Positions 18,086 to 37,417 of a stretch of 64,000 nt of DNA are shown piece after piece. The stretch comes from Halobacterium wangiae (lineage in GTDB: Archaea > Halobacteriota > Halobacteria > Halobacteriales > Halobacteriaceae). The first letter of the stretch is position 1. Each line of letters begins with the position of its first letter. Location of the stretch: the NCBI RefSeq assembly GCF_021249345.1, contig NZ_CP089588.1, forward strand, positions 1-64,000, read 5' to 3'. Below the pieces are notes generated by a model. It made no database searches. It was not told the DNA's origin and was given only the letters and a program-made list of their open reading frames with translations. The position numbers and the translations under genes were made by a program.

Positions 18086-18095
18086 TTCTCGGTCG

Positions 18096-18870: not shown

Positions 18871-18933
18871 ACCGGCAGACTGCGGGCCGTCTGCCGGCGC
18901 TCCGGGAGTACCCCGACTATCCGCCCGACAGTC

Positions 18934-18937
18934 TATA
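18934..18937 (+). promoter_or_regulatory. TATA box of the maleate isomerase gene
   Basis: CTATAC with core TATA at 18934-18937 lies 26-29 nt before the ATG at 18963. The spacing supports a leaderless transcript starting at this ATG rather than at the GTG 9 nt upstream. Confidence 0.5.
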
Positions 18938-18962
18938 CGCATCGAGTGCGTTAGTGAGTACC

Positions 18963-20874: not shown

Positions 20875-21645
20875 TCAGGAATACGAGAGGTTGAGTTCGA
20901 TGATGTTCTTGGCGTTCTGGAGCTGCTGTTTTATCTCGCCGTCGATGCGCTCCAGGGACATCCGGCTGGTCGGTCCCGTGACGCTGATGGCGCCCACGAC
21001 CTCGCCGTCGTGGAACAGCGGCGTTGCGACGCAGTTGAGGCCGCTGATGCGCTCCTCGTGATCGTAGGAGAACCCCTCTGCGCGGATCTCGTCGAGGGTC
21101 TCGTGGAGTTCCTCGCGGTCGGTGATGGTGTTCTCGGTCTTCGCGGGGAGCCCGTGGCGGTCCAGGATAGACTCCACCCGCTCCTCGGGGAGGGACGCGA
21201 GTATCGACTTCCCGATGGCCGTCGTGTGGAGGAGTATCTGCTGGCCGTTGTAGGAGTCGATCTTCACGGCGTTCTCGCCCTTCATGCGGTAGATGAACGT
21301 GCCGCGGCCGTCCTGCTCGACGAGGAGGTTCGCGAGTTCGCCGGTCTCCTCGGCGACGGCCTCGAGTTCGGGTTCGGCGACTGGGTAGAGCGGGACCCTG
21401 GTGCGGGCGTACGCGCCGAGGTCGAGGAAGCGCAGGCCGACCTCGTAGGCACCGTCGTCCTCGACGACGTAGCCGTGGTGGGCGAGCGTCTGGAGGTAGT
21501 TGTGGACGCTACTCTTCGGGAGGTCGACTGCCTCCGTCGCCTCGGTCAACGTGGCGCCGTCGGCCTCCTTGAGGAACTCCACGAGTTCCAGCGTTCGCTC
21601 CGCCGTCTTGACCGGCGTCCGTGGGCCCGCGTCACGTCGATTCAT
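20875..21645 (-). CDS. IclR-family transcriptional regulator
   Basis: Regulator of 256 residues. An N-terminal winged helix-turn-helix (about 14-75, containing DLPKSSVHNYLQTL as recognition region) is followed by an IclR effector-binding domain (about 85-256, with AIGKSILASLPEE and a C-terminal VVGAISVTGP segment). IclR proteins commonly control aromatic and organic-acid catabolism. It is the last gene of the minus-strand 2-oxoacid dehydrogenase cluster and may regulate it, or the adjoining island. ATG at 21645 is used; a TATA-like CATATAC at 21686-21692 would also allow a leaderless start at a GTG at 21660. Confidence 0.88.
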   Translation of the reverse strand: MNRRDAGPRTPVKTAERTLELVEFLKEADGATLTEATEAVDLPKSSVHNYLQTLAHHGYVVEDDGAYEVGLRFLDLGAYARTRVPLYPVAEPELEAVAEETGELANLLVEQDGRGTFIYRMKGENAVKIDSYNGQQILLHTTAIGKSILASLPEERVESILDRHGLPAKTENTITDREELHETLDEIRAEGFSYDHEERISGLNCVATPLFHDGEVVGAISVTGPTSRMSLERIDGEIKQQLQNAKNIIELNLSYS

Positions 21646-21702
21646 GGCTCGACAGAACACGTTCGGGAAGAAAAACCTTCTGTCCGTATATGACGAACCT
21701 CG

Positions 21703-22641
21703 TCAGACGATCCGGTTCCAGGGTTCCCGGTCGGCGGCGAGACACGTCGCGTTGTTCGTGACGAGCTCCGCAACCTTCTCGCCGTAGTTGTTCGACTGTG
21801 CCGCGGCGTGGGGCGTGACGATGACCTCGTCCATCTCCCAGAGCGGCGACTCGGGCTCGAGCGGTTCCGTGGCGAACACGTCCAGGGCTGCACCGGCGAT
21901 TTCGCCGCTCTCAAGGGCGGCCACCAGCGCGTTCTGTTCGACGATCTCCCCGCGACTCACATTCACCAGGAACGCGTCCTCGCGCATCGCGACGAGCGCC
22001 TCGGCACCGACGAGGCCGCGCGTGGACTCCCTGAGCGGAGCGGTGAGCACGACGAAGCGCGCGTCCGCGACGGCCTCCTCGAGTCGGCTCACGTCGTAGA
22101 CGCGGTCCAGACCGAGTGCCGACACCGGCCTGACGTCGACGCCCCAGACGTCCATGCCGAGCGCCGCGGCGCGCGTCGCAACGCTCGACCCCAGCGCGCC
22201 GAGGCCGACCACGCAGACGGACGCCCTGCCGAGTTCGAACGGGCGCTCCCAGTGGGTGCGCTCCCAGTCTGCGTCGCCCTGGTTGTCCCGGTAGTGGTGG
22301 AGCCCCTTCGCCTGTGCGAGCATCATGCCGAGTGCGCTCTCCGCGACGAGGTCGCCGGCGACCCCCGTACTGTTCGTCAGCGTGATGCCTCCGGCCTCGT
22401 AGGCGTCCAGTGGGAAGTCCTCGTACCCCGACCGGATGGTGTGGACCCAATCGACGCTCCCGAGGAACTGCTCGTGGTGGTAGACGGTGACCGCGGCGTC
22501 GCAGTCCGCCAGGTCGGACACGTCGCGCACGACGACCTCGCAGTCGAGGTCCGTGAGCAGGTCGCGGAGGTGCTCCGGTGGACACGGGTGGTCGCCCCAC
22601 TCCACGATGGCGAGTCGGTCGAACGGCGTCTCGACGGTCAT
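21703..22641 (-). CDS. D-isomer-specific 2-hydroxyacid dehydrogenase
   Basis: NAD(P)-dependent dehydrogenase of 312 residues. The NAD-binding GxGxxG is GLGALG near residue 147. The catalytic Arg lies in LTAPLRESTRG, and the catalytic His in TPHAAAQS near 287. The family interconverts D-2-hydroxyacids and 2-oxoacids (glyoxylate/hydroxypyruvate reductases, phosphoglycerate dehydrogenases). Its ATG overlaps the E3 gene stop by 4 nt, so it belongs to the 2-oxoacid dehydrogenase operon and probably feeds or drains the same 2-oxoacid pool. Exact substrate unknown. Confidence 0.85.
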   Translation of the reverse strand: MTVETPFDRLAIVEWGDHPCPPEHLRDLLTDLDCEVVVRDVSDLADCDAAVTVYHHEQFLGSVDWVHTIRSGYEDFPLDAYEAGGITLTNSTGVAGDLVAESALGMMLAQAKGLHHYRDNQGDADWERTHWERPFELGRASVCVVGLGALGSSVATRAAALGMDVWGVDVRPVSALGLDRVYDVSRLEEAVADARFVVLTAPLRESTRGLVGAEALVAMREDAFLVNVSRGEIVEQNALVAALESGEIAGAALDVFATEPLEPESPLWEMDEVIVTPHAAAQSNNYGEKVAELVTNNATCLAADREPWNRIV

Positions 22642-24062
22642 CGGTTGAGCGTGTGGATGGCCTGCCCGCGGGCGTTCTCTGCAGCCTCCATCACGGCCTC
22701 CGAGAGCGTCGGGTGGGTGTGGATGGTGCGCGCGATGTCCTCGAGGGTGGCGCCGAGTTCGATGGCGAGCGTGACCTCCGCGACGAGTTCGGAGGCCTCC
22801 GGCCCGACGATCTGGGCGCCGAGCACGAACTCGTCGTCGCCGTCCGCGACGAGGCGAACGAACCCCTCGTCGTTGCCGGTCGTCAGGGACCGGCCGCTCG
22901 CGCGGAACGGCATCTGGCCCACCACGGGGTCGAAGCCGGCGTCGGCGGCCTCGGCCTCGGTCATCCCGACGGTCGCAATCTCGGGGTCGGTGAAGACGAC
23001 GCTCGGGACGGCCTGGTAGTCGAGGGCCGCGGGTTCGCCCGCGACGACCTCGGCGGCGACGACGCCCTCCCTGCTGGCCTTGTGCGCGAGCATCGGTTCG
23101 CCGGCGACGTCCCCGACGGCGAAGATGTTGTCCACGTCGGTCCGGGCTCGACCGTCGGTCTCCAGGAAGCCCGCCTCGTTCGGTTCCAGCCCGGTAGCTT
23201 CGAGTTCGAGGGTGTCGGTGACGGGTTCACGACCGACCGCCACGAGGACCCGATCGGCCTCGTAGGACGACTCCTCGCCATCCTCGGTCTCCGTGGTGAC
23301 GACGATGCCGCCGTCGGTCTCCTCCCACCCGCTGGCCGCCTCGCCGAACTCGAACTGGATGCCGAGGTCCGCAGCGCGCTCGGTCACGACGCGCGTGACG
23401 TCGTCCTCGTAAGTGGGGAGTGCGCCGTCGAGCATCTCGACGACCGTGACGTCCGACCCGGCCTTCGCGAACGTCGTGGAGAGTTCCATGCCGATGTAGC
23501 CGGCGCCCACCACGACGAGTTCGTCGGGTACAGCCTCGGCGTCGAGCGCGTCCCGCGAGGACCAGACGGGGTCGTCCTCGAAGTCGAAGCCCGGCACCTC
23601 GATGGCGCGGGAGCCCGTGGCCACGATGGCGTGCTCGAACTCGATGGTCTCCATGCCCTGGCCGCTGCCGCCGTGGGCGATGCGCGCGGTGTGTTCGTCC
23701 TCGAAGGCTGCCGTCCCCTCGACGAGATTGACGCCGTTGGCCTTGCAGAGCTTCTCGACGCCGCCGGTCAACTGGTCGACGACGCCGTCCTTCCAGTCTG
23801 CCATCGCTGGCATGTCTATCTCGGGGTCGGCCACGACGCCCATCTCGGCGGCTTCGCCCGCGTCGTGAGCGAGGTCCGTCGCCGTGATGAGTGCCTTCGA
23901 CGGGATACAGCCGTAGTTGAGACAGGTCCCCCCGTAGGCGTCGCGCTCGACGAGTGTCGTGTCGAGGTCGTGCTGGGCCGCCCGAATCGCGGCCACGTAC
24001 CCACCGGGACCGCCGCCCACTACGAGCACGTCTGTTCCGGTCGCTATGTCGCCCATTACCAT
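22638..24062 (-). CDS. lpdA: Dihydrolipoyl dehydrogenase (E3)
   Basis: Flavoprotein disulfide reductase of 474 residues. FAD motif GGGPGG at 16-21, redox-active pair C47 and C52 in GGTCLNYGC, the NAD motif GAGYIGME near 190, the second FAD motif NIFAVGDV near 322 and the C-terminal His-Glu pair in HTHPTLSE. It reoxidises the dihydrolipoyl arm of the E2 protein encoded just upstream (73 nt gap). ATG at 24062 (MVMGD) fits the usual haloarchaeal E3 N-terminus; an ATG two codons later is equally possible. It overlaps the downstream hydroxyacid dehydrogenase by 4 nt. Confidence 0.92.
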   Translation of the reverse strand: MVMGDIATGTDVLVVGGGPGGYVAAIRAAQHDLDTTLVERDAYGGTCLNYGCIPSKALITATDLAHDAGEAAEMGVVADPEIDMPAMADWKDGVVDQLTGGVEKLCKANGVNLVEGTAAFEDEHTARIAHGGSGQGMETIEFEHAIVATGSRAIEVPGFDFEDDPVWSSRDALDAEAVPDELVVVGAGYIGMELSTTFAKAGSDVTVVEMLDGALPTYEDDVTRVVTERAADLGIQFEFGEAASGWEETDGGIVVTTETEDGEESSYEADRVLVAVGREPVTDTLELEATGLEPNEAGFLETDGRARTDVDNIFAVGDVAGEPMLAHKASREGVVAAEVVAGEPAALDYQAVPSVVFTDPEIATVGMTEAEAADAGFDPVVGQMPFRASGRSLTTGNDEGFVRLVADGDDEFVLGAQIVGPEASELVAEVTLAIELGATLEDIARTIHTHPTLSEAVMEAAENARGQAIHTLNR

Positions 24063-24135: not shown

Positions 24136-25701
24136 TCAGAGCAGCAGACGGGCGGGCCGACCGAGCAGTTCCTGCACGCGGTTGGTGAACTGGGCGGCGT
24201 CCGCGCCGTCGACGAGGCGGTGGTCGACGGACATCGAGAGGCGCATCGTCTCCCGGGGGACGACCTGGTCGTCGACGACCCACGGCCGCTTCGCGATCGG
24301 CCCCATCGCCAGGATGGCCGCCTCGGGGTGGTTGATGATGGGCGAGGAGAACTCGCCGCCGATGACGCCAATGTTCGTGATGGTGAACGTCCCGCCCTGC
24401 ATCTCCTCGCGGGCGAGTTCGCGATTGCGGGCGCGGGTGGCGAGGTCGTCTATCTCCCTGGCGAGTTCGACTAACCCCTTCCGGTCGGCGTGTTTCACGA
24501 CGGGCACCATCAGGCCCGCGTCCGTCGCCACCGCGATGCCGATGTTGTACTCGTCGTGGAGCACGATCTCCCCGGCCGCCTCGTCGAGACTGGAGTTGAG
24601 GAACGGGAACTCCTGGAGCGCGCGTGTGACCGCCTTCACGACGAACGGGAGGTAGGTGAGGTTCACCCCCTCCTGTTCGGCCGCCTCCGAGAGTTCCGCC
24701 CGCACCTCGACCAGGTCGCTGGCGTCGAACTCGTCGTGGTGGGCGACGTGCGGGGCAGTGTACTTCGACTGGGCCATCTGCTCGCCGATGGTCCGCCGGA
24801 TGCCGGTGTACGGGACCCGCTCCCCGGACGTCGGGCCGCTGGCTGCCCCACCGGCAGCCCCTTGGGCTGGCGCGCTCCCCTCCTCCGGGGCCTCAGTACC
24901 GCTGGATTCGACGTACGCACGGACGTCCTCGGGCGTGACGAACGCCTCGCCGTTCCGTTCCTCGCTGGCTGGTACGTCGTTGATGTCCACGCCCGCCTCC
25001 CGCGCTAGCTGGCGCGTCGCCGGCATCGCGAGCGTGCGGTCGCGCGCTGCACCCTCACTCTCCACGAGCACGGGTTCCTGCCGGGACGACCCCGAGGAAC
25101 GCTCGGTGCCACCCTGCGTGGCCGCTGACGCAGGGGCGGTCTCGGCGTCTGTCCCCGTCGCAGTCGCTCCGGCGTCCGCGTCCACCGTGCCGCCAGCATC
25201 TGACACGGCACGCACGTCGGCGGCGGTCACCCGGCCCCCCTCTCCGCTCCCCTGGACGGAGGCGAGATCGACGCCGAGTTCGCGGGCTAGCGTCCGGGTG
25301 CTCGGCGCGGCAAACACGCGCTCGGTGGACGGGCCGGGAGTGTCGCCCGGGACGTCCTCTGCCGCCGCCCCGCTGTCGTCACCGACGGATTCGGTCGCCG
25401 ATTCGACTGTCTCCTCGGTGTCGTCCGTGGACGATGCCGCCGACGCGTCGGCGGCCGCGTCGGGGACGTCGAAGGTGACGATGACGGAGTCGACGTCGAC
25501 CATCTCGCCCTCCTCGGCGTGGAGTTCCGACACTGTGCCGTCGTACGGCGACGGCACCTCCACGAGCGCCTTGTCCGTCTCCACTTCGGCGATGGTCTGG
25601 TCGGCCGTGACCTCTTCGCCGACGGAGACGAACCACGAGACGAGTTCGCCCTCCGCGATACCTTCACCCAGGTCTGGTAGCTCGAACTGCTGGTCGGCCA
25701 T
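24136..25701 (-). CDS. 2-oxoacid dehydrogenase acyltransferase (E2) with two E3-binding domains
   Basis: Dihydrolipoamide acyltransferase of 521 residues. It has one lipoyl domain (about 3-78, lipoylated K44 in ETDKA), an acidic linker, a peripheral subunit-binding domain (about 130-166), a second linker rich in Ala/Glu/Thr, a second peripheral subunit-binding domain (about 224-263) and the catalytic domain (295-521) with H494 and D498 in DHRLVDG. It forms the core of the complex and transfers acyl groups to CoA. Two binding domains in one chain are more than the single copy of most bacterial E2 proteins. Substrate (pyruvate, branched-chain or other 2-oxoacid) cannot be fixed from sequence. 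Confidence 0.9.
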   Translation of the reverse strand: MADQQFELPDLGEGIAEGELVSWFVSVGEEVTADQTIAEVETDKALVEVPSPYDGTVSELHAEEGEMVDVDSVIVTFDVPDAAADASAASSTDDTEETVESATESVGDDSGAAAEDVPGDTPGPSTERVFAAPSTRTLARELGVDLASVQGSGEGGRVTAADVRAVSDAGGTVDADAGATATGTDAETAPASAATQGGTERSSGSSRQEPVLVESEGAARDRTLAMPATRQLAREAGVDINDVPASEERNGEAFVTPEDVRAYVESSGTEAPEEGSAPAQGAAGGAASGPTSGERVPYTGIRRTIGEQMAQSKYTAPHVAHHDEFDASDLVEVRAELSEAAEQEGVNLTYLPFVVKAVTRALQEFPFLNSSLDEAAGEIVLHDEYNIGIAVATDAGLMVPVVKHADRKGLVELAREIDDLATRARNRELAREEMQGGTFTITNIGVIGGEFSSPIINHPEAAILAMGPIAKRPWVVDDQVVPRETMRLSMSVDHRLVDGADAAQFTNRVQELLGRPARLLL

Positions 25702-25802: not shown

Positions 25803-26774
25803 CTACACCGACATCGCGTCCTCGATGGCGTCGAGGATGCGCGGCGGGTGGGGGAAGTAGTAGTCCTCCATCGACAGCAGCGGGACGGGGGTGTCGAAGC
25901 CCGTGACGCGCTCGACGGGCGCCTCCAGGTACATCAGCGCCTCGTCGTTGATGCGCGCGACGATGTCGCCACCGACACCGTGGCTGCGCGGTCCCTCGTG
26001 GACGACGACCGCTCGCCCGGTCTTCTTCACGGACTCGACGACCGTCTCCGCGTCCATCGGCGAGATGGTGCGGAGGTCGACGACTTCGACGTCCGCGTCG
26101 GCCTCGTCGGCCGCCTCCAGGGTCGGCGGCATCATCGACCCCCAGGAGACGACGGTGACGTCCGAGCCTTCGCGGCGCACGGTGGCTTCGCCGAGGGGCA
26201 CCTCGTAGTCCTCCTCGGGGACCTCCTCGCGGAACGACCGGTAGATGCGTTTGGGCTCCATGAACAGCACGGGGTCGGGGTCGCGGATGGACGCGAGCAA
26301 CAGCCCCTTCGTGTCGTGGGGGGTGCTCGGTGCGACGACCTTCAGCCCCGGGATGTGGGCGTACGCGCCCTCCATGCTCTCGGAGTGGTGTTCCAGTGCG
26401 CGCACACCGGCGCCGTACGGCATCCGGACGACCATCGGCGCGGTGAGCGCGCCGCGGGTCCGCCAGCGGACGCGGCTCGCGTTCGTCACCAGCTGGTCGA
26501 AGGCCGGTGGCAGGAACCCCGAGAACTGTATCTCGGCGACCGGCCGGTAGCCGTACATCGCCAGCCCCGTCGCGGCGCCGACGATGGCGATCTCCGACAG
26601 CGGCGTGTCGACCACGCGGTCGCCGCCGAACTCCTCGAGCAGTTCGTCGGTCGCGCGGAACACGCCACCGCTGGCCGCGACGTCCTCGCCGAAGACGACG
26701 ACGTCGTCGTCGGCAGCCATCTCCGTGTGCAATGCGTCGTTGACTGCTTCTACGATAGTTGCCTGCATGGTCAC
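25803..26774 (-). CDS. 2-oxoacid dehydrogenase E1 beta subunit
   Basis: Transketolase-like subunit of 323 residues. Family features are FGEDVAASGGVFRAT near 28, DTPLSEIAIVGAATGLA near 56, EIQFSGFLPPAFDQ near 80 and HHSESMEGAYAHIPGLKVV near 130. With the alpha subunit it forms the thiamine-diphosphate E1 enzyme. The start used is GTG at 26774, whose GTGA overlaps the alpha-subunit stop; an ATG two codons on (26768) is possible. About 100 nt separate it from E2. Confidence 0.9.
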   Translation of the reverse strand: MTMQATIVEAVNDALHTEMAADDDVVVFGEDVAASGGVFRATDELLEEFGGDRVVDTPLSEIAIVGAATGLAMYGYRPVAEIQFSGFLPPAFDQLVTNASRVRWRTRGALTAPMVVRMPYGAGVRALEHHSESMEGAYAHIPGLKVVAPSTPHDTKGLLLASIRDPDPVLFMEPKRIYRSFREEVPEEDYEVPLGEATVRREGSDVTVVSWGSMMPPTLEAADEADADVEVVDLRTISPMDAETVVESVKKTGRAVVVHEGPRSHGVGGDIVARINDEALMYLEAPVERVTGFDTPVPLLSMEDYYFPHPPRILDAIEDAMSV

Positions 26775-27934
26775 CCCTTGGGTCGCTGCTCGATGTGGTC
26801 GTACATCTCGGGGCGGCGCTCGAGGAGGTCGCTGAACTCCTCGAACTGGCGCTGGAGCTCCGGCGGCAGCTCCGCGTAGACGTGCGCGAATATCTCCTCG
26901 ATGCCCCGCTCGGCGAACGCGTTCGCCTCCTCGAGTGCCGCGTCGAACTCGGCCTCGATCTCCTCGACGATGCCGTCGTGGTCGATGTCCGCCCAGAGCC
27001 CCTCGGACTCGAGGAACTCGCGGTAGCGCTCCAGCGGGTCGACCGCCTCCCAGGCCACGACCTCCTCGTCGCTGCGGTAGCGGGTCGGGTCGTCACTGGT
27101 CGTGTGGGCGTCCATGCGGTACGTGACGGACTCGACGAACACCGGTTCGCCGTTCCGGACCCGCTCGCGGGCCTCGGTGACGGCGTCGTACACCGCCAGG
27201 ACGTCCTGGCCGTCGACGCGGATGGCGTCCATGCCGTAGGCCAGGGCCTTCTGTGCGAGCGTGTTCGCGGCCGTCTGCTGGTCCGCGGACAGCGAGATGG
27301 CGTACTGGTTGTTCTGGCAGTAGAACAGCGCTGGGACGCCGAGCGCCCCCGCGAAGTTGATGGCCTCGTGGGCGGCCCCCGTCGACGTAGCGCCGTCGCC
27401 GAGGTACGCCGTGGCGATGGCGTCGTCGCCGCTGAGGTCCATGCCCCACGCCAGACCGGCGACGAGAGGGAGGTGGGAGCCGATGGAGATGGCTATCTGG
27501 CAGTTGTGTTCGGCGAACGACTGCTGGCCCTCCTCGATGCCGCGCCAGAACAGTATCATGTCCTTCATCGGGACGCCGCGCATGAACATCGGCGTCCACG
27601 CGCGCCCGACGTAGAGCCAGTCGTCTGGCTGGAGCGTGTAGGCGCTCCCGATGATGCTCGCCTCCTGGCCCCGGGTCGACCCGAACGTACCGAGTTCACC
27701 GCGGCGCTGGATGCTCACCATACGTCTGCTGAACACGCGGTCGGTCAACATCCACCGGTAGAGGTCCTGGAACTGCTCGGCGTCCAGGTCGGGGACGTCC
27801 GCCGCGTCGTAGGTTCCGTCCGGGGCGACGATCTGGTGGGTGTCCACCGAGAGGTCGTCCTGGGAGAGGAACCGTGGGTCGCCAGCGCTGACGGCAGCGT
27901 TGGCTGGGTGTTCGGTTGGAACGTTTTCGCTCAT
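26771..27934 (-). CDS. 2-oxoacid dehydrogenase E1 alpha subunit
   Basis: Thiamine-diphosphate-binding subunit of 387 residues. The ThDP motif starts GDGATSTGAAHEA and ends CQNNQYAIS (near 175-212). It decarboxylates a 2-oxoacid and passes the acyl group to lipoyl-E2. Haloarchaea carry several such complexes; some act on branched-chain acids or have unknown substrates. Here the operon also encodes a D-2-hydroxyacid dehydrogenase and is flanked by lactate-utilisation-type genes, so pyruvate or a short-chain 2-oxoacid is plausible. First gene of the operon, preceded by an ATTTATTTA box at 27962-27970. Confidence 0.9.
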   Translation of the reverse strand: MSENVPTEHPANAAVSAGDPRFLSQDDLSVDTHQIVAPDGTYDAADVPDLDAEQFQDLYRWMLTDRVFSRRMVSIQRRGELGTFGSTRGQEASIIGSAYTLQPDDWLYVGRAWTPMFMRGVPMKDMILFWRGIEEGQQSFAEHNCQIAISIGSHLPLVAGLAWGMDLSGDDAIATAYLGDGATSTGAAHEAINFAGALGVPALFYCQNNQYAISLSADQQTAANTLAQKALAYGMDAIRVDGQDVLAVYDAVTEARERVRNGEPVFVESVTYRMDAHTTSDDPTRYRSDEEVVAWEAVDPLERYREFLESEGLWADIDHDGIVEEIEAEFDAALEEANAFAERGIEEIFAHVYAELPPELQRQFEEFSDLLERRPEMYDHIEQRPKG

Positions 27935-28123: not shown

Positions 28124-29212
28124 ATGATAGACCCGGCGGACCATCTCGTCGTCGACTGCGACTGGCACTACGCGGACACGTTCACGCAGGTGGCGCCGTA
28201 CATGCCCGAACCCTGGAAGACGAAGTTCCCGAAGAGCGGGTTCGGCGACACCGGCGTCCGGCAGAACCTCTCGGCGTTCTTTCCGGCCTCGACCGGCAAC
28301 CGGTTCAACTACGGGAAGATCGAACGCGAGTTCTCCGAGTACCCGGACGGCGGGGACACGAAGGCCGACGTCCTCGAGGGGATGGACCACCTGGACATCG
28401 ACAAGACGCTCCAGATTTCGCACCTCATCCTGGCGATGGGCGGCATCTCGGCCGACGACCGCCGCGTCGAGGCGTTCGTGAAGGGGTACATCGAGTACAT
28501 GCTGGAGGAGGTACTCGACCCCGACGAGGGCATCTACGGCCTCGCACCGATGCCGTATCACGACATCGACGCCTCGATGGACATCCTCGACCGCGTGGAG
28601 GACGAGGAAGCGTTCGTCGGCGTCGTGATGGTCACGGCGGGCGCGAGTCCGCCGCTGGGCAACCGGAAGTACGACCCAATCTACGAACGCTGCGAGGAGA
28701 TGGACTACCCGGTCGTCTACCACACGGGTGGGTCGGGCCTCGACGACTACGTGCGCGCCGGCTACCAGGACATGATCGAGACCCACACGCTCGGGTTCCT
28801 GGAGGCGAACATGTCCCAGATAGTCAGCGTCGCCTGCCAGGGCGTCCCCGAGAAGTTCCCGGACCTCGACATCGTGTTCATGGAGTCCGGCGTCACGTAC
28901 ATCCCAGGGCTGGTCTGTCGCATCAACGAGGAGTACCTCAAACGCTCCGAGGAGGCCCCGCTGCTGGAGAAGAAGCCGGGAGACTACATCACGGACTTCT
29001 ACTTCGGCACCCAGCCACTAGAGGTGTCCGCACGCCCGGACCTTCTGGAGATCTGCTTCGACATGGTCGGCACCGAGAACCTGCTGTACGCCTCGGACTA
29101 CCCGCACTGGGACTTCGACAGTCCGAGCATCATCACGGACCTGCCGATGCTCGACGACGAGGACCGGAAGAACATCCTCGGACGGAACGCCGTGGAGGCG
29201 TTCGGCCTATGA
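28124..29212 (+). CDS. Amidohydrolase-family (amidohydrolase 2) protein
   Basis: TIM-barrel metal hydrolase/decarboxylase-type protein of 362 residues. Metal ligands are suggested by DCDWHY (residues 11-16), a His in VVYHTGGSG near 203 and the Asp of YASDYPHWDFDSP near 330. The N-terminal DxDxH form instead of HxH occurs in the branch with decarboxylases such as 5-carboxyvanillate or gamma-resorcylate decarboxylases, but many relatives are unassigned. The Rieske gene starts within its stop codon (ATGA overlap). ATG at 28124, preceded by a GGTGA element, is used; an in-frame GTG at 28088 is an alternative. Confidence 0.82.
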   Translation: MIDPADHLVVDCDWHYADTFTQVAPYMPEPWKTKFPKSGFGDTGVRQNLSAFFPASTGNRFNYGKIEREFSEYPDGGDTKADVLEGMDHLDIDKTLQISHLILAMGGISADDRRVEAFVKGYIEYMLEEVLDPDEGIYGLAPMPYHDIDASMDILDRVEDEEAFVGVVMVTAGASPPLGNRKYDPIYERCEEMDYPVVYHTGGSGLDDYVRAGYQDMIETHTLGFLEANMSQIVSVACQGVPEKFPDLDIVFMESGVTYIPGLVCRINEEYLKRSEEAPLLEKKPGDYITDFYFGTQPLEVSARPDLLEICFDMVGTENLLYASDYPHWDFDSPSIITDLPMLDDEDRKNILGRNAVEAFGL

Positions 29213-29586
29213 GCGCCGAGAACCGCGTGGAGGTCGGACCGGCAGCGGAGTTCGAGGACGGCGACGCGGAACTCGTCCAGGTCGGACGCGTGGAGGTCGG
29301 CGTTATCAAGGCCAATGGCGAGTTCCACGCCCTCCGCAACCAGTGCCCGCACGACGGCGGCCCGGTCTGCAAAGGAGAAGTCGAACCCCGCCTCGTCGGC
29401 GAGTGGGGTGGGTCGGGGGAGCGCGTCGAGCAGCACTACGACGACGACCAGCAGATCATCTCCTGTCCCTGGCACGGGTGGTCCTTCGACGTCGAGACGG
29501 GCGAACACATCGGCGACGACCGGTACGCCATCCCGAAGTACGACGTCGTCGTCGAGGACGGCACTGTGTACGTGAAAGGAGAGTAG
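29209..29586 (+). CDS. Rieske [2Fe-2S] protein with long inter-ligand insertion
   Basis: Small Rieske protein of 125 residues. The cluster ligands are CPH (about residue 45) and CPWH (about 85). The two motifs are separated by 37 residues instead of the usual 15-17, an insertion of about 20 acidic residues rich in Gly and Glu. It probably is an electron carrier or an accessory to the amidohydrolase, with which it is translationally coupled. No Rieske oxygenase catalytic subunit lies nearby. Family firm; function unknown. Confidence 0.85.
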   Translation: MSAENRVEVGPAAEFEDGDAELVQVGRVEVGVIKANGEFHALRNQCPHDGGPVCKGEVEPRLVGEWGGSGERVEQHYDDDQQIISCPWHGWSFDVETGEHIGDDRYAIPKYDVVVEDGTVYVKGE

Positions 29587-29683: not shown

Positions 29684-30712
29684 ATGGCCCATAGAAGCAC
29701 CAGCAGACGCACGTTTCTAAAGTCAGGTACAGCAGCCGCGGCAGTCGGACTCACGGGAGTAGCGGGGTGTCTCGGCGGCGGGGGCGGCGGCGTCTCCGAC
29801 CTCAGCCTCGCGTTCACCGTTCCGGTTGAGAACCTCGGTTCCCTGTTCGACATCCAGGAGCTCCGCGACGAACTATCGAACGTCGGCGAGGAGTACGAAC
29901 TCAGCGTCTCCCGGAACTCGAGCACGCCGGACTCACTGAACTCGATGGCGGCCGGAGAACTCGACCTCGCGCTGCTCTCGTCGGTGAGCTACGGGTCGGC
30001 AGTCAGCGAGGAGGCCGTCCCCGGCAACATCTCGATGATCTCCACGGACTTCTGGGACGCACACCCCGAGTGGTACGGGTTCACCATCTTCGCCGGTTCC
30101 GACACCGGCGTCAGCAACCCAGAGGACCTTGAGGGGAAGAAGGTCGCCGTGAACTCCAAGGGGACCGGCGTGCACGCCGTCGTCAACAAGGCACTCATCC
30201 AGGCGGGCCTCGACCCGGAGAACGACGTCGAAGTCGTCGAACTCCCGTTCCCGTCCATCGCGTCGGCGATCAACGACGGCCGCGTCCACGCCGGCATCTT
30301 CCCGGCGATCTTCGCCGTCGCGGCCCGCGCGGAGGGCTTCACGGACGTCGTCTCCAGCCAGGACCTCTGGGACGAACAGTACCCGTTCGCGTACACCGTC
30401 GCGTCGAAGAACTCACTGGACAACAAGTCCGACGCCATCGAACTGTGGGGCGAGGACCTCGCTGAACTCGTCCAGTACTGCTACGACAACCGCCCCGAGG
30501 TCGTGTCGCTCGCCGCCGAGCACTTCGAACTCCCGGAGCAGGTCGTCGACGGGTTCTTCCTCAACAACAACGACTACTTCCGCAAGGACATCACCATCGA
30601 CATGGACCGCCTGCAGGCCACGATGGACGAACTGGTCGAACTCGGCTTCCTCGAGGAGTCCTTCGACGTCACGGAGTACGCGACCAACGACTACGTCCCG
30701 TCGATCAACTGA
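29684..30712 (+). CDS. ABC transporter substrate-binding lipoprotein, NMT1/SsuA/TauA type
   Basis: Secreted binding protein of 342 residues. The N-terminus has a twin-arginine motif (SRRTFLK) and a lipobox VAGC followed by a Gly-rich spacer, indicating TAT export and lipid anchoring. The mature part fits the NMT1/ThiY/SsuA group (LEGKKVAVNSKGTGVHAV near 155). These proteins serve transporters for sulfonates, pyrimidine-like compounds, nitrate and aromatic acids. The matching permease and ATPase genes lie convergently on the other strand at 30.9-33.2 kb. ATG at 29684 is used; GTG at 29669 is possible. Confidence 0.88.
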   Translation: MAHRSTSRRTFLKSGTAAAAVGLTGVAGCLGGGGGGVSDLSLAFTVPVENLGSLFDIQELRDELSNVGEEYELSVSRNSSTPDSLNSMAAGELDLALLSSVSYGSAVSEEAVPGNISMISTDFWDAHPEWYGFTIFAGSDTGVSNPEDLEGKKVAVNSKGTGVHAVVNKALIQAGLDPENDVEVVELPFPSIASAINDGRVHAGIFPAIFAVAARAEGFTDVVSSQDLWDEQYPFAYTVASKNSLDNKSDAIELWGEDLAELVQYCYDNRPEVVSLAAEHFELPEQVVDGFFLNNNDYFRKDITIDMDRLQATMDELVELGFLEESFDVTEYATNDYVPSIN

Positions 30713-30862: not shown

Positions 30863-31639
30863 CTACGTCCAGCGCAGGAGGCGGCTCCGGGCGAGCCGGA
30901 GCAGGCGGTCGAGGCCGAGGCCGACCAGCATGATAGCGATGATGGCGGCGTACGTCTGCGTCGATTGGAACGACCGGACGCCCTCGATCTCGAGGGCACC
31001 GAGGCCGCCGCCGCCGGCGATCATCTCGAAGACGAACGTGATGATGAGCGACAGCGGGAGCGCGATCTGGAGGCCGGTCATGATGCCGGGTGCCGCCGCC
31101 GGCAGGATGACCCGCCGCACCAGGTTCCAGTCGCTCGTCCCCATCATCCGCGCTGCCCAGACGAGGTTCTTCTCGACCTGTCTGGCGGCGTCACGGGCGT
31201 TCACCGCGACCGGCCAGAACGTGCCGACCGCGACCATGATGATCTTCGACGTGTCGCCGATGCCGAACCACAGCATGAACACCGGGATGAGCGCGATGAT
31301 GGGTACCGGGTAGCCGATCTTGATGATCGGGTCGAAGAACCAGTCGACGACGTCGTTGCGCGCGCTGAGGACGCCGACGGCCACGCCGAGGATGGAGGCG
31401 ATGGCGAGTCCGAGGAACGCCCGTTTCAGCGTCAGGTAGGCGTTCTCGAGCATCTCGCCGGACGCCGTCAGGTCGACGAATCGGGTGAGGACGTCCGACA
31501 GCGGCGGCAGGAAGTAGTAGTGGATGTACCCCATCTGGGTGACGACCTCCCAGAGCACGAGGATGATGACCAGCGAGTACACCGACTTCGCGATATTGAC
31601 GACCGAGGAGCCGTCGAACTGGTCGGTGCTCACGCCCAT
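30863..31639 (-). CDS. ABC transporter permease, SsuC/TauC type (1)
   Basis: Membrane permease of 258 residues with about six hydrophobic segments. The cytoplasmic EAA-type loop is at about 175-205 (VWAARMMGTSDWNLVRRVILPAAAP). It belongs to the sulfonate/nitrate/taurine permease family. It overlaps the second permease gene by 10 nt and is the last gene of the minus-strand transporter operon. Two non-identical permeases suggest a heterodimeric pore. Confidence 0.88.
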   Translation of the reverse strand: MGVSTDQFDGSSVVNIAKSVYSLVIILVLWEVVTQMGYIHYYFLPPLSDVLTRFVDLTASGEMLENAYLTLKRAFLGLAIASILGVAVGVLSARNDVVDWFFDPIIKIGYPVPIIALIPVFMLWFGIGDTSKIIMVAVGTFWPVAVNARDAARQVEKNLVWAARMMGTSDWNLVRRVILPAAAPGIMTGLQIALPLSLIITFVFEMIAGGGGLGALEIEGVRSFQSTQTYAAIIAIMLVGLGLDRLLRLARSRLLRWT

Positions 31640-32421
31640 GCTAACACCCGTTCACGGAGGATCTCGAAGCCACGCACGGCGAAGTACGCGATCGCGGAGA
31701 TGATCACGATGTTCGCGAACATCACCGAGTAGTTGCCGACCTGACCGGCCGTCAGGATGAGGTAGCCGATGCCCATGTCCGAGGCGATGAGTTCGGCGCT
31801 CACCAGCGCGATGAACGCGATTGGAATCGCCTGCCGGATGCCGGTGAGTATCTCTGGGATGGTCGCGGGGATGACGACCTTCCAGAATAGCCGTCTGCCG
31901 TCGGTCCCCATCATCTTCGCCGCCCACACCAGGTTCTTGTCGACGTTCTCCGCCGCGTTGTACGCGTTCAACACGATCGGCAGTAGACAGGCCAGGAACA
32001 CGATGAGCACGGCCGTCTCGGTGCCGACGCCGAGCCAGAGGATGGCCAGCGGCACGAGCGCGGTCTTCGGAATCGGGTACGTGAGGGCGAGCAACACCTC
32101 GAAGAAGTTCTCGACGGGGTCGAGTCTGGCCATCCCGATGCCGAGCAGCACGCCGATCGCGATGGCCAACGCCAGACCGACGCCGATGCGCGTCAGCGAC
32201 GTCGAGAGGTGGGAGAACACGTCGCCGCTGGCGACGAGGTTCTGTATCTCTCCCGCGACGATGGTCGGCGACGGCAGGATAGCTGCTGGCACCGCCGTCC
32301 CGCTCGCGTACTCCCAGAGGAGCGTGAGGATGACGAGCGGAATCCAGTCGAAGACGAACTGCCCCGCACGCTGGACGGGTGCGGGGACGGCGTCGAACGA
32401 CCGGACGGTCACGTTGCTCAC
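31630..32421 (-). CDS. ABC transporter permease, SsuC/TauC type (2)
   Basis: Membrane permease of 263 residues with about six hydrophobic segments and an EAA loop containing VWAAKMMGTDGRRLFWKVVIPATIP. It is a paralogue of the neighbouring permease. The start is GTG at 32421, only 2 nt after the ATPase stop codon, so the genes are co-translated. It should pair with the other permease to import the ligand of the lipoprotein at 29.7 kb. Confidence 0.87.
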   Translation of the reverse strand: MSNVTVRSFDAVPAPVQRAGQFVFDWIPLVILTLLWEYASGTAVPAAILPSPTIVAGEIQNLVASGDVFSHLSTSLTRIGVGLALAIAIGVLLGIGMARLDPVENFFEVLLALTYPIPKTALVPLAILWLGVGTETAVLIVFLACLLPIVLNAYNAAENVDKNLVWAAKMMGTDGRRLFWKVVIPATIPEILTGIRQAIPIAFIALVSAELIASDMGIGYLILTAGQVGNYSVMFANIVIISAIAYFAVRGFEILRERVLAWA

Positions 32422-32423
32422 GG

Positions 32424-33221
32424 CTACCGTTGCACCTCGGGTTGTGTCTCCTCCCGGAGGGACTTCCAGACGGTGTTCTTCGTCTCGTTGAACTCGTCGC
32501 TGGTGATGATCTCCTCGCGGGACTGCGAGCGGTCGAGGTCGACGTCGGTCACCGTCTTCTTCGTCCCGGGGTGGCGGGTCATCACCATCACCCGGTCGGA
32601 GAGGTAGACGGCCTCCTCGACGTCGTGGGTCACGAAGACGACCGTCTTGTCCAGGTCACCCCAGATGTCGATGAGCTGGTCCTGGAGCGCCTCGCGGAGC
32701 GGCTGGTCGAGCGCGCCGAACGGCTCGTCCATCAACAGGATCTTCGGCTCGTACGCGAGGGTGCGCGCGAGACCGACCCGCTGTTTCATCCCGCCGGAGA
32801 GCTCCTTGGGGTAGTTGTCCTCGAAGCCGCTGAGGTCCATCATGTCGATGTACTTCTGGGCGGTCGAGCGGCGCTCCTCCTTCGGGACTCCCTGTTCCTC
32901 GAGCCCGTAGGTGACGTTCTCCATGACGGTCCGCCACGGGAACAGTGCGTAATCCTGGAAGACGACGCCCCGGTCGGTTCCGGGGCCGTCGATGGGGGTG
33001 CCGTCTACCTCGATGGTGCCGGATGTCTCCTCGAGGAAGCCCGCGACGAGGTACAGCAGCGTACTCTTCCCGCAGCCACTGGGCCCCACGATGCTGGCGA
33101 ACTCGCCGCCCTCGATGTCGAAGGAGAGGTCCTCGACCGCGACCGTGCGTTCCGCGCCGTCGTCGTACACCTTCTCGAGGTTGGATATCGAGACGTGTCC
33201 GTCGAGGGTGCGTTCAGTCAT
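32424..33221 (-). CDS. ABC transporter ATP-binding protein, SsuB/TauB type
   Basis: ABC ATPase of 265 residues. Walker A (GPSGCGKST, near 46), Q-loop (VFQDYALFPW, near 88), signature (LSGGMKQRV, near 142), Walker B (ILLMDEPFGALD, near 162) and switch His (VTHDVEEA, near 197) are all present. ALFPW after the Q-loop and PFGALD are typical of the nitrate/sulfonate/taurine ATPases. It is the first gene of the operon, preceded by a palindromic operator candidate and a TATA box. Confidence 0.9.
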   Translation of the reverse strand: MTERTLDGHVSISNLEKVYDDGAERTVAVEDLSFDIEGGEFASIVGPSGCGKSTLLYLVAGFLEETSGTIEVDGTPIDGPGTDRGVVFQDYALFPWRTVMENVTYGLEEQGVPKEERRSTAQKYIDMMDLSGFEDNYPKELSGGMKQRVGLARTLAYEPKILLMDEPFGALDQPLREALQDQLIDIWGDLDKTVVFVTHDVEEAVYLSDRVMVMTRHPGTKKTVTDVDLDRSQSREEIITSDEFNETKNTVWKSLREETQPEVQR

Positions 33222-33514: not shown

Positions 33515-35707
33515 TCACTCGGGCGCCAGCAGTTCCACCGGGTGCCGGTTGCCGCGGGCGAGCAGTCCGGCGAGTTGCTCCTGGCAGGACGCCCCGCTGG
33601 CTACGACTTCGCGGTCGGCCGTCTCCTCGGCCTCGAACTGGTCGCGCAGCGTCCCGCCGACGTCCACGGCGAGTTCGTAGTACTGGGACTTGTAGCCGAA
33701 ACTGCCCGCCATCCCGCAACACTCCACGTCCGAGGTCACCACGTCGTAGCCCACTCGCTCGAGGACCGCCTCCGTGTACACGTCCAGACCGAGCGTGCGC
33801 TGCTGGCAGTGGCTGTGGTACGCGACGTCGCCGCCGCCCGCGAGCGCGTCGGCGTCAGCGCCGTTCTCCAGGAGTCCGTAGACGTACTCGAGCACCTCGT
33901 AGCTGTGCTCGGCGAGGCGCTCGGCGCGGTTCGCCGGGAGGAGCCGTTCGTACTCGTCGCGGAACGCCGCTAGGTCCGACGGTTCGACGACCACGACGTC
34001 GCGGCCGTCGTCGAGGTACGGGTCGAGGCTGTCCGCGACGCGGCGGGCGTTCCGGCGTGCCGTCGCGATCATCCCCTGGGAGAGCGGCGCGCGTCCGCTC
34101 TCGTGGCACGACGCCACGGCGACGTCGACGCCGAGCGCTTCGAGGGTTCTGACGGCGGCCTTCCCGCGGTCAACGAGCACGTAGTTCGTGTACGCGTCCG
34201 GGTAGAGCACGACCTCGCGGTCGGCGTCGCCCGCGGTGTCCAGCGGTTCGCGCGACGCGAACCAGTCGCGGAGCGTCTCACGCTGGAACTCCGGGAGGTC
34301 GCGGCGCCGGTCGACGCCAGCCACCCGGTCCAAGAAGGCACGACTCGGTCCCCAGTCGGCCAGCCAGTTCGAGACCGGTGCAGTCGCGCTCCCGAGTCGC
34401 GCGAGCGTCCCGAAGTTCCCGAACAGGCGCTTCTGGACGTCGACGCCGCCGGGGTCCGCGTCAGGCGTCAGACCTTCGACCAGCCAGTCGAACTCCTGGT
34501 CTGTGCCGCGGTTCAGGCGGTCTCGGACGACCGTGTTGATCCACGGGATGTCGATCTTCACGGGACAGGCGTTCACGCAGCGCGAACAGCCAGTACAGAG
34601 GTCGTTGAACTCCGCGGCGCGGTCCATGCCGTGGACGCCGGCCTCCCAACCGGTGGCGATGCCGCCGGTGTACGTCTCGCCGCCGAAGGCGTGTCCGCCG
34701 ACGTGCTGGAAGTTCGCACACGAGTTCGCACACGCGCCACACCGGATACAGTACAGCGTCTCGCGGAGGTCTTCGTCCTCGCGCATCTCCGTCCGGCCGT
34801 TGTCGAGGAGGACGAGGTGGAACTCGCGGTTGTCGGTCGCGCCGTCCAGCGGTTCGTCGGGCTTCTCGAAGTCCACGACCGGCGAGTCCACCGGCGGGGA
34901 GAGCAAGGACAGGTAGGTGGCGATGTCCTGTCCGCCGGCGGCGCGCGCGATGAGTTCCGCGAACGGGGGGAACTCCGCGACGCTCGGGATTAGCTTCTCG
35001 ACGCCCGCGACGGCGACGTGCGTGTCCGGCGTCACCGCGCACTTGCGGGCGTTGCCCTCGTTCGTCACGAGCGCGATGGTACCGGAGTCGGCGAACACGA
35101 AGTTCGCGCCAGTCATCCCCACGTCCGCGTCACGAATCTGCTCGCCCACGTGGTCGCGCGCGAACTGCGTCAGGTCCGTCGCCGTCTCCAGGGGGACGTC
35201 GGGGTCGAACTGCTCGTTGAACAGGGTCGCGATCTCCCCGGTTGACTTGTGGAACGCCGGCCCGACGAGGTGGGATGGGGCCTCGTCGGCGACCTGGATA
35301 ACGAACTCGCCGAGGTCCGTCTCGCAGACCTCGACGCCGACCGCCTCGAGCGCCTCGTTGACGTCTATCTCCTCGCTGGTCATCGACTTCGACTTCGCGA
35401 CGGCGTCGGCGCCCCGGTCCTCGACCACGTCGGTGATGTACCGGTTCGCGTCCGCCGCGTCGTCGGCGACGTAGACGGTGCCACCGTTCGCCTCGACGCT
35501 CTCCCGGACGGTCTCGACGAGTTCCGGGAGGCGCTCGATGGCGTCCTCCTTGATGCGCCGGGCCTCGCTCCGGAGTTCCTCGATGTCGTCGCGGTGGGAG
35601 TTCGCCTCCAGGCGCCCCGCGTTGACGTGTGTGGTGTTCTCGAAGACGGCGTCGCCCTCGGTCGCCAGGAGGTGTCGGATGCGGTCGGCCTTCTGTCGCC
35701 GGCTCAT
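33515..35707 (-). CDS. LutB-LutA-type fusion: LUD, double 4Fe-4S and CCG domains
   Basis: Iron-sulfur protein of 730 residues. The first part is a LUD/LutB domain (about 60-310). A double [4Fe-4S] ferredoxin region follows (CIRCGACANSC near 365 and CTGCSRCVNAC near 412). The C-terminal third is a GlcF/LutA-like cysteine-rich (CCG) region with ASCHESGR, HSHCQQR, ECCGMAGSFG and a last ASCQ. In Bacillus LutA, LutB and LutC are separate proteins oxidising L-lactate to pyruvate; here LutA-like and LutB-like parts are fused. The first CCG repeat has single Cys rather than a Cys pair. Its ATG overlaps the LutC-like stop by 4 nt. Confidence 0.85.
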   Translation of the reverse strand: MSRRQKADRIRHLLATEGDAVFENTTHVNAGRLEANSHRDDIEELRSEARRIKEDAIERLPELVETVRESVEANGGTVYVADDAADANRYITDVVEDRGADAVAKSKSMTSEEIDVNEALEAVGVEVCETDLGEFVIQVADEAPSHLVGPAFHKSTGEIATLFNEQFDPDVPLETATDLTQFARDHVGEQIRDADVGMTGANFVFADSGTIALVTNEGNARKCAVTPDTHVAVAGVEKLIPSVAEFPPFAELIARAAGGQDIATYLSLLSPPVDSPVVDFEKPDEPLDGATDNREFHLVLLDNGRTEMREDEDLRETLYCIRCGACANSCANFQHVGGHAFGGETYTGGIATGWEAGVHGMDRAAEFNDLCTGCSRCVNACPVKIDIPWINTVVRDRLNRGTDQEFDWLVEGLTPDADPGGVDVQKRLFGNFGTLARLGSATAPVSNWLADWGPSRAFLDRVAGVDRRRDLPEFQRETLRDWFASREPLDTAGDADREVVLYPDAYTNYVLVDRGKAAVRTLEALGVDVAVASCHESGRAPLSQGMIATARRNARRVADSLDPYLDDGRDVVVVEPSDLAAFRDEYERLLPANRAERLAEHSYEVLEYVYGLLENGADADALAGGGDVAYHSHCQQRTLGLDVYTEAVLERVGYDVVTSDVECCGMAGSFGYKSQYYELAVDVGGTLRDQFEAEETADREVVASGASCQEQLAGLLARGNRHPVELLAPE

Positions 35708-36213
35708 CGGTCGGTGAGGACGACGGCGTGGACGGTCTGTGGCCCGTGGACGCCGGTGACGAGTTCCCCCATGTCCGCCGTGGCGCTCGCACCCGTCGCG
35801 AGGACAGCGGAGTCCCGGCCCGCCGCGAACTCGTCGCCGAGCCACGAGGCCACCGAGCGCACGTCCTCGTAGAGGTCGCTAGCACGGACGACGCCGACGT
35901 GCGTACGCGGGTAGAGACTCACGGGTTCGGTGCCGGCCTCGTCGGCCTGGACGACGAACGTCCCGTACTCGACGATGCCGGCGTGGACGCGCGTGACGCC
36001 GGTTTCGGCCTCGTCGAGCAGTCGCGGCGTCGGCGGGAGTTCGACGATCGTGTCGTCGAGTGAGACGCCGTCGATGCCCAGCGGTGTGCCGACGGCGGGA
36101 GCGTCGACCACGTCGTCGAGGACCGCCTCGAAGTCGGCGGCCGTCGTGCGCGTGCAGTCGACGTCGGCCGTGGAGAGCGCGGCCGCGAAGCCGTCTACGG
36201 TATCCGTTCCCAT
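35704..36213 (-). CDS. lutC: LutC-like LUD domain protein
   Basis: Protein of 169 residues with a single LUD domain. The segments VHAGIVEYGTFVVQADE and LATGASATADMGELVTGVHGP are characteristic of LutC/YkgG. It works with LutA/LutB in oxidation of lactate or related 2-hydroxyacids. It is the first gene of a two-gene operon and overlaps the LutB-LutA fusion by 4 nt. ATG at 36213 is chosen over a GTG 9 nt upstream; a GATAAA element at about 36240-36245 fits a promoter. Confidence 0.82.
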   Translation of the reverse strand: MGTDTVDGFAAALSTADVDCTRTTAADFEAVLDDVVDAPAVGTPLGIDGVSLDDTIVELPPTPRLLDEAETGVTRVHAGIVEYGTFVVQADEAGTEPVSLYPRTHVGVVRASDLYEDVRSVASWLGDEFAAGRDSAVLATGASATADMGELVTGVHGPQTVHAVVLTDR

Positions 36214-36273
36214 TGCACACACATTGGACCGAGACCGGGTTTATCTCTACCGGTCAACGGTAGTGATGTTCGT

Positions 36274-36759
36274 TCACTCCTCGGTCATCACAGTGACCAC
36301 GGGGACGTCGGCGTTGAGGAGGAAGGACTGGGTCGCGCTGCCGAAGACCGCCTTCCCCACCGGCGTGCGCTTGCGGCCGCCGACGACGAGGAAGGTGGGG
36401 GCCCGTTCGTCCGCGATGTCGAGTACCTCCTGGACGGCTTCACCGACGCGCCCGACGTACGTCACTGCCTCGGGGAGGTCGTCGACGGACTGCTCGGTGA
36501 CGTCACGTGCGACGCCCCGGGCGTCCCGCTGTGCCTGGTCGATGGAGTACGACGTCTCGGCGGCGGACTGGCCGTACTCGGTCCCCGACGGGAAACTGAA
36601 GTCGCCCGACGACCCGTCGTCGGCGCGCGTCTCGTACGTCTCCTGTGCCATCACGTGGACGACCACGAGTTCTTCCCCGTACTGGCTCGCCAGGTCGGCG
36701 CCGACCTCCGCGACCCTGTCTGGAATCTGCTCGCCGTCGACCGCTGCGACGATGGTCAT
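36274..36759 (-). CDS. UspA-family universal stress protein
   Basis: Protein of 161 residues with one Usp domain. The nucleotide-binding motif begins GGRKRTP and continues to FGSATQSF near the C-terminus. Residues about 45-75 form an insertion rich in Ser, Asp and Gly. ATG at 36759 (MTIVAAVDG) gives the typical Usp first strand; the in-frame start at 36798 adds 13 residues. Function probably stress or nucleotide sensing. It lies near the Lut operon with no obvious link. Confidence 0.82.
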   Translation of the reverse strand: MTIVAAVDGEQIPDRVAEVGADLASQYGEELVVVHVMAQETYETRADDGSSGDFSFPSGTEYGQSAAETSYSIDQAQRDARGVARDVTEQSVDDLPEAVTYVGRVGEAVQEVLDIADERAPTFLVVGGRKRTPVGKAVFGSATQSFLLNADVPVVTVMTEE

Positions 36760-36898
36760 ACCCGCCCTTTCGGGCGAGGCTACAAAAGCGTACGTCACGA
36801 GCCCAGACGTCGGGAAACGACGCCGTCCTCGGCGTTAGCGCGCGTGGCGGTTCGTCGGCACGGTGTCCGTCTCGACGCTCTCGAACCCCGGCACCAGC

Positions 36899-36904
36899 TA
36901 TTTA
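36899..36904 (+). promoter_or_regulatory. TATA box of the DUF3237 gene
   Basis: TATTTA at 36899-36904, 25-30 nt before the ATG at 36929. A GGGAGG sequence also directly precedes the ATG, so leaderless or short-leader initiation are both possible. Confidence 0.45.
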
Positions 36905-36928
36905 CTGAACGGCGCGGATACGGGAGGT

Positions 36929-37417
36929 ATGGCCGGGACTATCGACGAACACGAGAACGAACACCTGACACCGTCGCTCGAACACGTCCTCGACCTCGAC
37001 ATCGAAGTGGCCGAACCCATCGTCGTTGGCGAGACGGGGGACGGTGAGCGACGGATCATTCAGATCACCGACGGCACGGTCTCCGGCCGGGTCGACGGCC
37101 ACGTCCTCCCGGGCGGTGCAGACTACCAGTTGTTCCGGGAAGAGCGACCGACCGAACTGGTGGCGAAGTACGCCTTCGAGACGGACGCGGGCTCCCGAGT
37201 GTACGTGGAGAACCGGGGCATCCGCGTCACGGACCCCGCGGACAGCAGGCGACTCCGCGACGGCGAAGCGGTCGACCCCGAGGACGTCTACTTCCGGTCG
37301 GTGCCGGAGTTCGAGACGGCCGACCCAGATCTCGAATGGCTCTCGGAGAGCGTCTTCGTCGCGACCGGGGTGCGCCAACCCTACGGCGTGAAACTCGCGG
37401 TGTACCGGGTCGGCTGA
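36929..37417 (+). CDS. DUF3237 (UPF0311) family protein
   Basis: Protein of 162 residues. The conserved features of DUF3237 are visible: an early GERRII segment, VDGHVLPGGADYQ near 60 and YVENRGIRV near 98. The family forms a beta-barrel of unknown biochemical role and is often encoded near catabolic genes for aromatic or terpenoid compounds. It stands alone with its own promoter. ATG at 36929 fits the box spacing. Confidence 0.78.
   Translation: MAGTIDEHENEHLTPSLEHVLDLDIEVAEPIVVGETGDGERRIIQITDGTVSGRVDGHVLPGGADYQLFREERPTELVAKYAFETDAGSRVYVENRGIRVTDPADSRRLRDGEAVDPEDVYFRSVPEFETADPDLEWLSESVFVATGVRQPYGVKLAVYRVG

Follow-up and report, generated by a model that had tools for sequence, protein, structure and literature searches.

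Amidohydrolase-related dinuclear oxygenases (AROs) are a recently recognised class of enzymes holding two metal ions, candidates for which were located through small Rieske genes lying near genes of PF04909, a family that also includes decarboxylases and hydratases (Liu 2024, PMC10811679). The pairing of AROs with Rieske proteins has already been published, haloarchaea included (Powell 2023, PMC10401708; Liu 2024, PMC10811679), and Rieske co-occurrence has been put at 90% for 555 AibH2-like proteins (PMC10401708). In the 2-aminoisobutyrate monooxygenase of Rhodococcus wratislaviensis (AibH1H2-AibG-AibF), AibG and AibF feed electrons to AibH1H2, and the metal ligands of AibH2 are D25, H27, H211, E265, D337 and H340, with D342 as a second-sphere acid, a residue linked by Hibi 2021 to binuclear centres (PMC7782822). 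SfbO and the proteins of 8SM7, 8SM8 and 8SM9, which share with the locus described here the PF04909 fold and the dinuclear ligand set, were likewise found by their neighbouring Rieske genes, and their authors infer no native substrates for them (PMC10811679). For AibH2-like proteins more generally, Powell 2023 describes few co-occurring genes from which function might be inferred (PMC10401708).

Here we describe an overlapping gene pair in the window, by which we mean the whole stretch of 64,000 nucleotides from Halobacterium wangiae that was analysed. An earlier note, made from the sequence alone, had read the pair as an amidohydrolase coupled to a Rieske protein, placed it next to an NMT1-type importer with no oxygenase catalytic subunit nearby, and called the combination unexplained. 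The best explanation of the locus as a whole, to which we give a probability of about 0.82, is an ARO-type monooxygenase and its Rieske donor within a catabolic operon. The association of ARO and Rieske protein as an enzyme system was known; the additions made here are that the spacing of the Rieske ligands follows the partner, and that a haloarchaeal subclade carries a conserved operon. Neither this loop-length rule nor the operon was found in the article text searched, with queries that did not name loop length.

Results

The PF04909 protein and the oxygenase content of the genome

In sequence and fold, the window's PF04909 protein is closer to AROs than to the mononuclear members of the family. 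Its best matches in the PDB are 8SM7 (E 4.3e-43), its nearest solved relative, SfbO 8SM6 (4.2e-32) and AibH2 6M1W_B (7.7e-32), followed lower down by AibH1 chains (about 1e-13), PtmU3 (2.2e-9) and chains named decarboxylases (7.8e-7 or weaker). Against a 17-sequence profile, PDB chains of AROs reached 8.9e-98 to 4e-70 and those of AibH1 about 1e-56, with decarboxylases at 7e-25 and PtmU3 at 1.6e-24 or weaker. The AlphaFold2 model is only moderately confident (mean pLDDT 77.3, pTM 0.84; residues 39-74 and 215-219 poor), and in a PDB fold search with it the first 20 ranks went to chains of AROs and of AibH1/AibH2. In alignment, the six AibH2 ligands correspond to D13, H15, H200, E254, D325 and H328, and the second-sphere D342 to D330; of the 97 distinct ARO-like sequences collected, 79 retain all seven residues. 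In a separate haloarchaeal ARO clade (L101, L113, L114, L136, L137 and L138) the second-sphere Asp is replaced by Thr (DHHEDHT), and the accompanying Rieske spacings are 25, 33 or 34.

On these grounds the "amidohydrolase" is most likely itself the oxygenase that had seemed absent from the locus. The earlier statement that no oxygenase catalytic subunit lies near stands for the classical type, as the genome has no PF00848 match, and overlooks the PF04909 protein as the likely oxygenase. Since this protein groups with AROs, which were found through small Rieske genes, the puzzling gene combination is one of a published kind (PMC10401708, PMC10811679), and the pair very probably constitutes an ARO-type multicomponent monooxygenase system.

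The genome, a single contig of 3.11 Mb listed as 99.88% complete, contains one ARO match only at E<=0.001, and hence no recognisable AibH1-type second subunit. A search of the whole genome for the Rieske-oxygenase alpha subunit (PF00848), positive in 4 of 14 control genomes, gave no match; five Rieske-domain matches were obtained, including the window's Rieske protein, and the other four ORFs, read by eye, showed no likeness to such alpha subunits. A distant classical Rieske oxygenase, with which the earlier note had considered that the Rieske protein might pair, was rejected as a partner because the genome lacks PF00848. No AibF-like reductase was recognised in the cluster, all three PF00970 (FAD_binding_6) matches of the genome being far away from it, at 361 kb, 1.12 Mb and 2.35 Mb, so that a reductase would act from elsewhere. 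The locus thus resembles AibH1H2-AibG-AibF in its PF04909 subunit with the same seven residues, in having the Rieske gene within the cluster, and in forming a catabolic cluster with a transporter, but differs in that AibH2 works together with AibH1, a second PF04909 subunit, and with AibF, a reductase of the same cluster.

Arrangement and recurrence of the gene pair

The features of the locus are collected in Table 1, and include the NMT1-type importer protein that had been placed beside the pair. The ATGA overlap reported earlier was reproduced: the ARO stop and the Rieske start share four bases on the same strand, from which the Rieske gene is read as part of the ARO's putative transcriptional unit. 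At 12 of 12 haloarchaeal loci (L006-L017), with starts (ATG or GTG) chosen by script, the Rieske gene starts on the final sense base of the gene before it. The survey of genomes suggested in the earlier note found the pair conserved elsewhere, the opposite of the outcome that the note had named as refuting its reading, and this recurrence means that the pairing is not due to chance. In Halobellus captivus (L014:3932-5001, also L149) the ARO frame is split into two overlapping pieces, by mutation or sequencing error.

Table 1. Features of the window around the ARO-Rieske pair (locus counts refer to the 22 subclade regions)
Feature	Coordinates	Strand	Basis	Occurrence
IclR-family regulator	20875..21660	-	PF01614, PF09339	7/22 loci
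D-isomer-type 2-hydroxyacid dehydrogenase	21703..22641	-	PF02826	10/22 loci
E3 dihydrolipoamide dehydrogenase, start inferred	22638..24062	-	PF07992, PF02852	16/22 loci
E2 lipoyl acyltransferase, start inferred	24136..25701	-	PF00198, PF00364, PF02817	15/22 loci
2-oxoacid dehydrogenase E1 beta	25803..26774	-	PF02779, PF02780	19/22 loci
2-oxoacid dehydrogenase E1 alpha	26771..27934	-	PF00676	22/22 loci
PF04909 protein, ARO-type, likely oxygenase catalytic subunit, 362 aa	28124..29212	+	PF04909 E 2.1e-32; best PDB relatives 8SM7/8SM6/6M1W_B	
Rieske [2Fe-2S] protein, likely ARO electron donor, 125 aa	29209..29586	+	PF00355 E 6.7e-15	
Rieske protein, long stretch between the ligand motifs (residues about 57-85), modelled as extended beta-hairpin (58-65 / 74-85)	29377..29463	+	AF2 model, loop survey	
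NMT1/SsuA-like ABC substrate-binding protein, TAT-like signal, start inferred	29684..30712	+	PF13379 E 6.8e-12, PF09084; TAT just below Pfam cut-off	
ABC permease	30863..31639	-	PF00528	19/22 loci
Second ABC permease	31630..32421	-	ORF, identified without Pfam	19/22 loci
ABC ATPase	32424..33221	-	PF00005	19/22 loci
LUD-domain and 4Fe-4S protein (LutB/LldF-like), candidate 2-hydroxyacid oxidation, start inferred	33515..35707	-	PF02589, PF13183	
LUD-domain protein (LutC/LldG-like)	35704..36222	-	PF02589	
Universal stress protein, recurrent neighbour	36274..36798	-	PF00582	20/22 loci
DUF3237 protein, recurrent neighbour	36863..37417	+	PF11578	8/22 loci

A long hairpin in Rieske proteins that accompany AROs

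In the Rieske protein the cluster ligands are C46, H48, C86 and H89, in C-x-H and C-x2-H motifs, and the 37 residues earlier counted between H48 and C86 proved exact. In its AlphaFold2 model (mean pLDDT 91.2) the extra residues form an extended beta-hairpin, and the remaining fold is close to that of dioxygenase ferredoxins (best VIA Z 16.8, rmsd 2.0, 102 residues). The protein shares its fold (VIA Z about 15-17) and its C-x-H ... C-x2-H ligands with CarAc, the NDO ferredoxin and the ferredoxin of toluene 4-monooxygenase (T4MO), but its inter-ligand stretch is about 20 residues longer than theirs and its partner is a TIM-barrel ARO, of which it is most likely the electron supplier.

Spacing was surveyed in 136 distinct Rieske sequences from the fetched loci, a sample seeded by similarity to the window's Rieske protein, of which 135 aligned at all four ligands (L052 was dropped). 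By this alignment-based count, a spacing of 25-37 was found in 83 of 87 distinct Rieske proteins encoded at most 1.5 kb away from an ARO-like gene, as against 16-21 in 46 of 48 without such a neighbour (about 16 in 45 of the 48); 77 of the 87 ARO-like neighbours keep all seven residues, and ten are without the full set. After thinning at 70% identity, long and short spacings numbered 44 and 3 beside an ARO-like gene compared to 2 and 38 without one (Fisher p 2e-18, a value that applies to this similarity-seeded sample only). The two long-spaced exceptions (L173, L176) have an ARO-like gene at a distance of about 3-3.5 kb, while two of the short-spaced ones co-occur with a long one (L173, L174) and two are paired with an ARO-like protein having Glu for the first Asp ligand (L109, L180). 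These last (L180:816-2262 and L109:17797-19318) combine a Rieske protein of 16-residue spacing with an ARO-like protein on a very long tree branch, and possibly perform other chemistry.

Furthermore, 13 loci (L168-L180), hand-picked from the 60 listed by an ARO search, were reached through the ARO, although some of their plasmids also occur in the Rieske listing and L162, L168 and L178 represent one gene cluster. A long-loop Rieske protein was present at 11 of the 13; at L172 none was detected by the profile, and at L180 the sole Rieske protein is short-looped and stands beside a different ARO. The length of the Rieske spacing therefore follows the ARO partner, and the idea of a unique 37-residue spacing was rejected, as 25-37 is the norm beside ARO-like genes. 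The hairpin probably serves docking on the ARO. Three bacterial loci (L161, L173 and L174) encode, besides the long Rieske protein, a ferredoxin with a short loop and an FAD-dependent oxidoreductase (on the opposite strand at L161), so that the long protein may be an ARO-bound subunit.

A conserved operon in a haloarchaeal subclade

Of the 391 genomes of the class, 97 encode a similar Rieske protein at E<=1e-10. Among the matches listed, 60 regions were compared, comprising the 34 strongest besides the window and 26 chosen ones; neighbours may be missed in the seven that span less than 20 kb. We define a subclade as the window together with the 22 regions (from 22 genomes) having the closest Rieske proteins among the 60, the remainder being 38 haloarchaeal ARO-Rieske regions. 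A tree was built from 93 ARO sequences of 300-480 residues, a range that left out the broken ARO of L149. In it a single clade with support of 100/100 takes in the window, 21 of the 22 regions and, as the last of its 23 rows, an additional plasmid copy in L180. This copy (L180:10001-11089, Halobellus limi) has E1 and binding-protein genes nearby and no adjoining Rieske gene, and may draw electrons from the Rieske protein of another copy.

With the same thresholds applied throughout, genes for E1-alpha and for the binding protein each occur in all 22 subclade regions and in 1 of the 38 others, the binding protein of L145 and the E1-alpha of L150 being partial matches at a region edge. LUD genes, as in the window, are present in 9 of the 22 and an LDH-like gene in 12, with no region having both and one (L147) having neither; at these thresholds both are absent from the other 38. 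Weaker LUD/4Fe-4S matches below threshold (about 1e-60 to 2e-68) do occur at six of the 38 (L100, L101, L102, L118, L123 and L129), which shows that LUD-like genes are not exclusive to the subclade. The LUD carriers make up one fully supported group on the ARO tree, suggesting that the exchange between LDH and LUD was probably a single event. Since gene order and strand, compared by eye, differ among the Halobacterium-, Halobellus-, Halostagnicola-type and other loci, the gene set has been kept together through rearrangement. The ARO-Rieske system sits in a conserved, uncharacterised operon that is probably degradative. An operon of the Halobacterium type was also seen on an 11-kb contig (L144), equal in length to that of L007, in a genome assigned to a different family (G186), reflecting either transfer or contamination.

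The LUD genes link the locus to a further described system. Haloferax LudBC has been suggested to be an L-lactate dehydrogenase (PMC8305020). The LUD-domain/4Fe-4S proteins encoded near the pair resemble haloarchaeal LudBC and Bacillus LutABC in domain content; unlike these systems, the window's LUD genes are tied to an ARO operon. Hydroxyacid oxidoreductases were also found near further AROs in individual cases, both bacterial (L159, L161, L162/L168/L178 and L174) and haloarchaeal (L179). However, several bacterial ARO loci have other neighbours, such as aldehyde dehydrogenase, betaine or acyl-CoA genes, so that hydroxyacid chemistry is not general to the ARO family and hydroxyacid oxidation is a lead for the haloarchaeal subclade only. 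In Sinorhizobium (L177:7707-10643) and Paracoccus (L170:7998-9674) the ARO-Rieske pairs lie beside betaine-aldehyde/aldehyde dehydrogenase genes, hinting at quaternary-amine substrates for these two AROs. Elsewhere in the window, ORFs at 9000-19760 resemble by eye a cyclase, a histidinol-dehydrogenase-like protein, an aldehyde dehydrogenase, xanthine-dehydrogenase-family subunits, an FAD monooxygenase and a maleate-isomerase/racemase-like protein, and perhaps form an N-heterocycle catabolic cluster.

Discussion

With family placement, conserved ligands, pairing, loop length and operon conservation all observed, a working scheme for the operon can be proposed. The ABC importer would bring a small organic compound into the cell, where the predicted dinuclear site of the ARO (Mn/Fe or Fe2) would activate O2 and hydroxylate it, with electrons passed on by the Rieske protein. 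A 2-hydroxyacid would then be oxidised by the LUD-type proteins in the window, or by the LDH-like enzyme in its relatives, and the 2-oxoacid would be oxidatively decarboxylated by E1-E2-E3 to yield an acyl-CoA. Metal content, O2 chemistry, electron path, substrate and step order are what we infer here; because the basis for the order of reactions is gene neighbourhood, it is not proven, and we regard the 2-hydroxyacid/2-oxoacid route as a tentative proposal at somewhat less than even odds. A fuller reading, in which a Mn-Fe ARO would alpha-hydroxylate an imported carboxylic acid on its way through LUD/LDH and E1-E2-E3 to acyl-CoA, and the long-hairpin Rieske protein would be a dedicated subunit of the ARO and no exchangeable ferredoxin, must be considered doubtful; if it is true, a Rieske spacing of more than 24 residues would become a sequence tag for finding AROs.

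Several other explanations were weighed. The ARO might instead hydroxylate a C-H bond adjacent to N or O in a larger molecule and so cleave it, with lactate- or pyruvate-like fragments feeding LUD/LDH and E1-E2-E3; the binding protein is SsuA/NMT1-like, a family whose ligands are varied. Such N-dealkylation is performed by SfbO on surrogate buffers (PMC10811679). On the other hand, the sulfate-binding arginines of SfbO are not conserved in the window's ARO, Arg232 aligning with Thr222 or His221 in two alignments and Arg235 with Phe225 in both, and no gene for the second fragment was recognised in passing, leaving cleavage of this type rather unlikely. A sulfonate substrate by analogy with SfbO was rejected on account of the same two arginines, which disfavours that pocket only and not every sulfonate; the stretch in question adjoins a poorly modelled segment. 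It is also unlikely that the lactate/pyruvate module is independent of the ARO and Rieske protein, lying in one catabolic island with them and linked to them by co-regulation alone. The further catabolic-looking ORFs seen by eye in the window, and the absence of some operon parts at some subclade loci, would fit such an arrangement, but E1-alpha and the binding protein accompany the pair at every subclade locus, in several gene orders, and at only a single other ARO locus each.

Two remaining alternatives concern the pair itself. Decarboxylases and hydratases also belong to PF04909 (PMC10811679), and the first protein might be an amidohydrolase that hydrolyses or decarboxylates its substrate, its Rieske partner acting as a redox sensor; this is highly improbable given its full dinuclear ligand set, together with the acidic residue tied to binuclear centres by Hibi 2021 (PMC7782822), and given that decarboxylases score far below AROs against it in sequence and profile comparisons. 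Service of the Rieske protein to a distant classical Rieske oxygenase, which its nearest fold among dioxygenase ferredoxins might suggest, has next to nothing in its favour once the missing PF00848 match in a nearly complete genome and the Rieske-ARO gene overlap at 12 of 12 loci are taken into account.

The tight and recurrent gene set of the subclade (importer, ARO, Rieske protein, hydroxyacid oxidation and 2-oxoacid dehydrogenase) narrows the search for a substrate, and the operon may also point to what a 2-oxoacid dehydrogenase complex acts on. In addition, the length of the Rieske loop offers a simple marker for partners of AROs, and should the hairpin prove to dock on the ARO, the way electrons are delivered in this young family of enzymes becomes testable.
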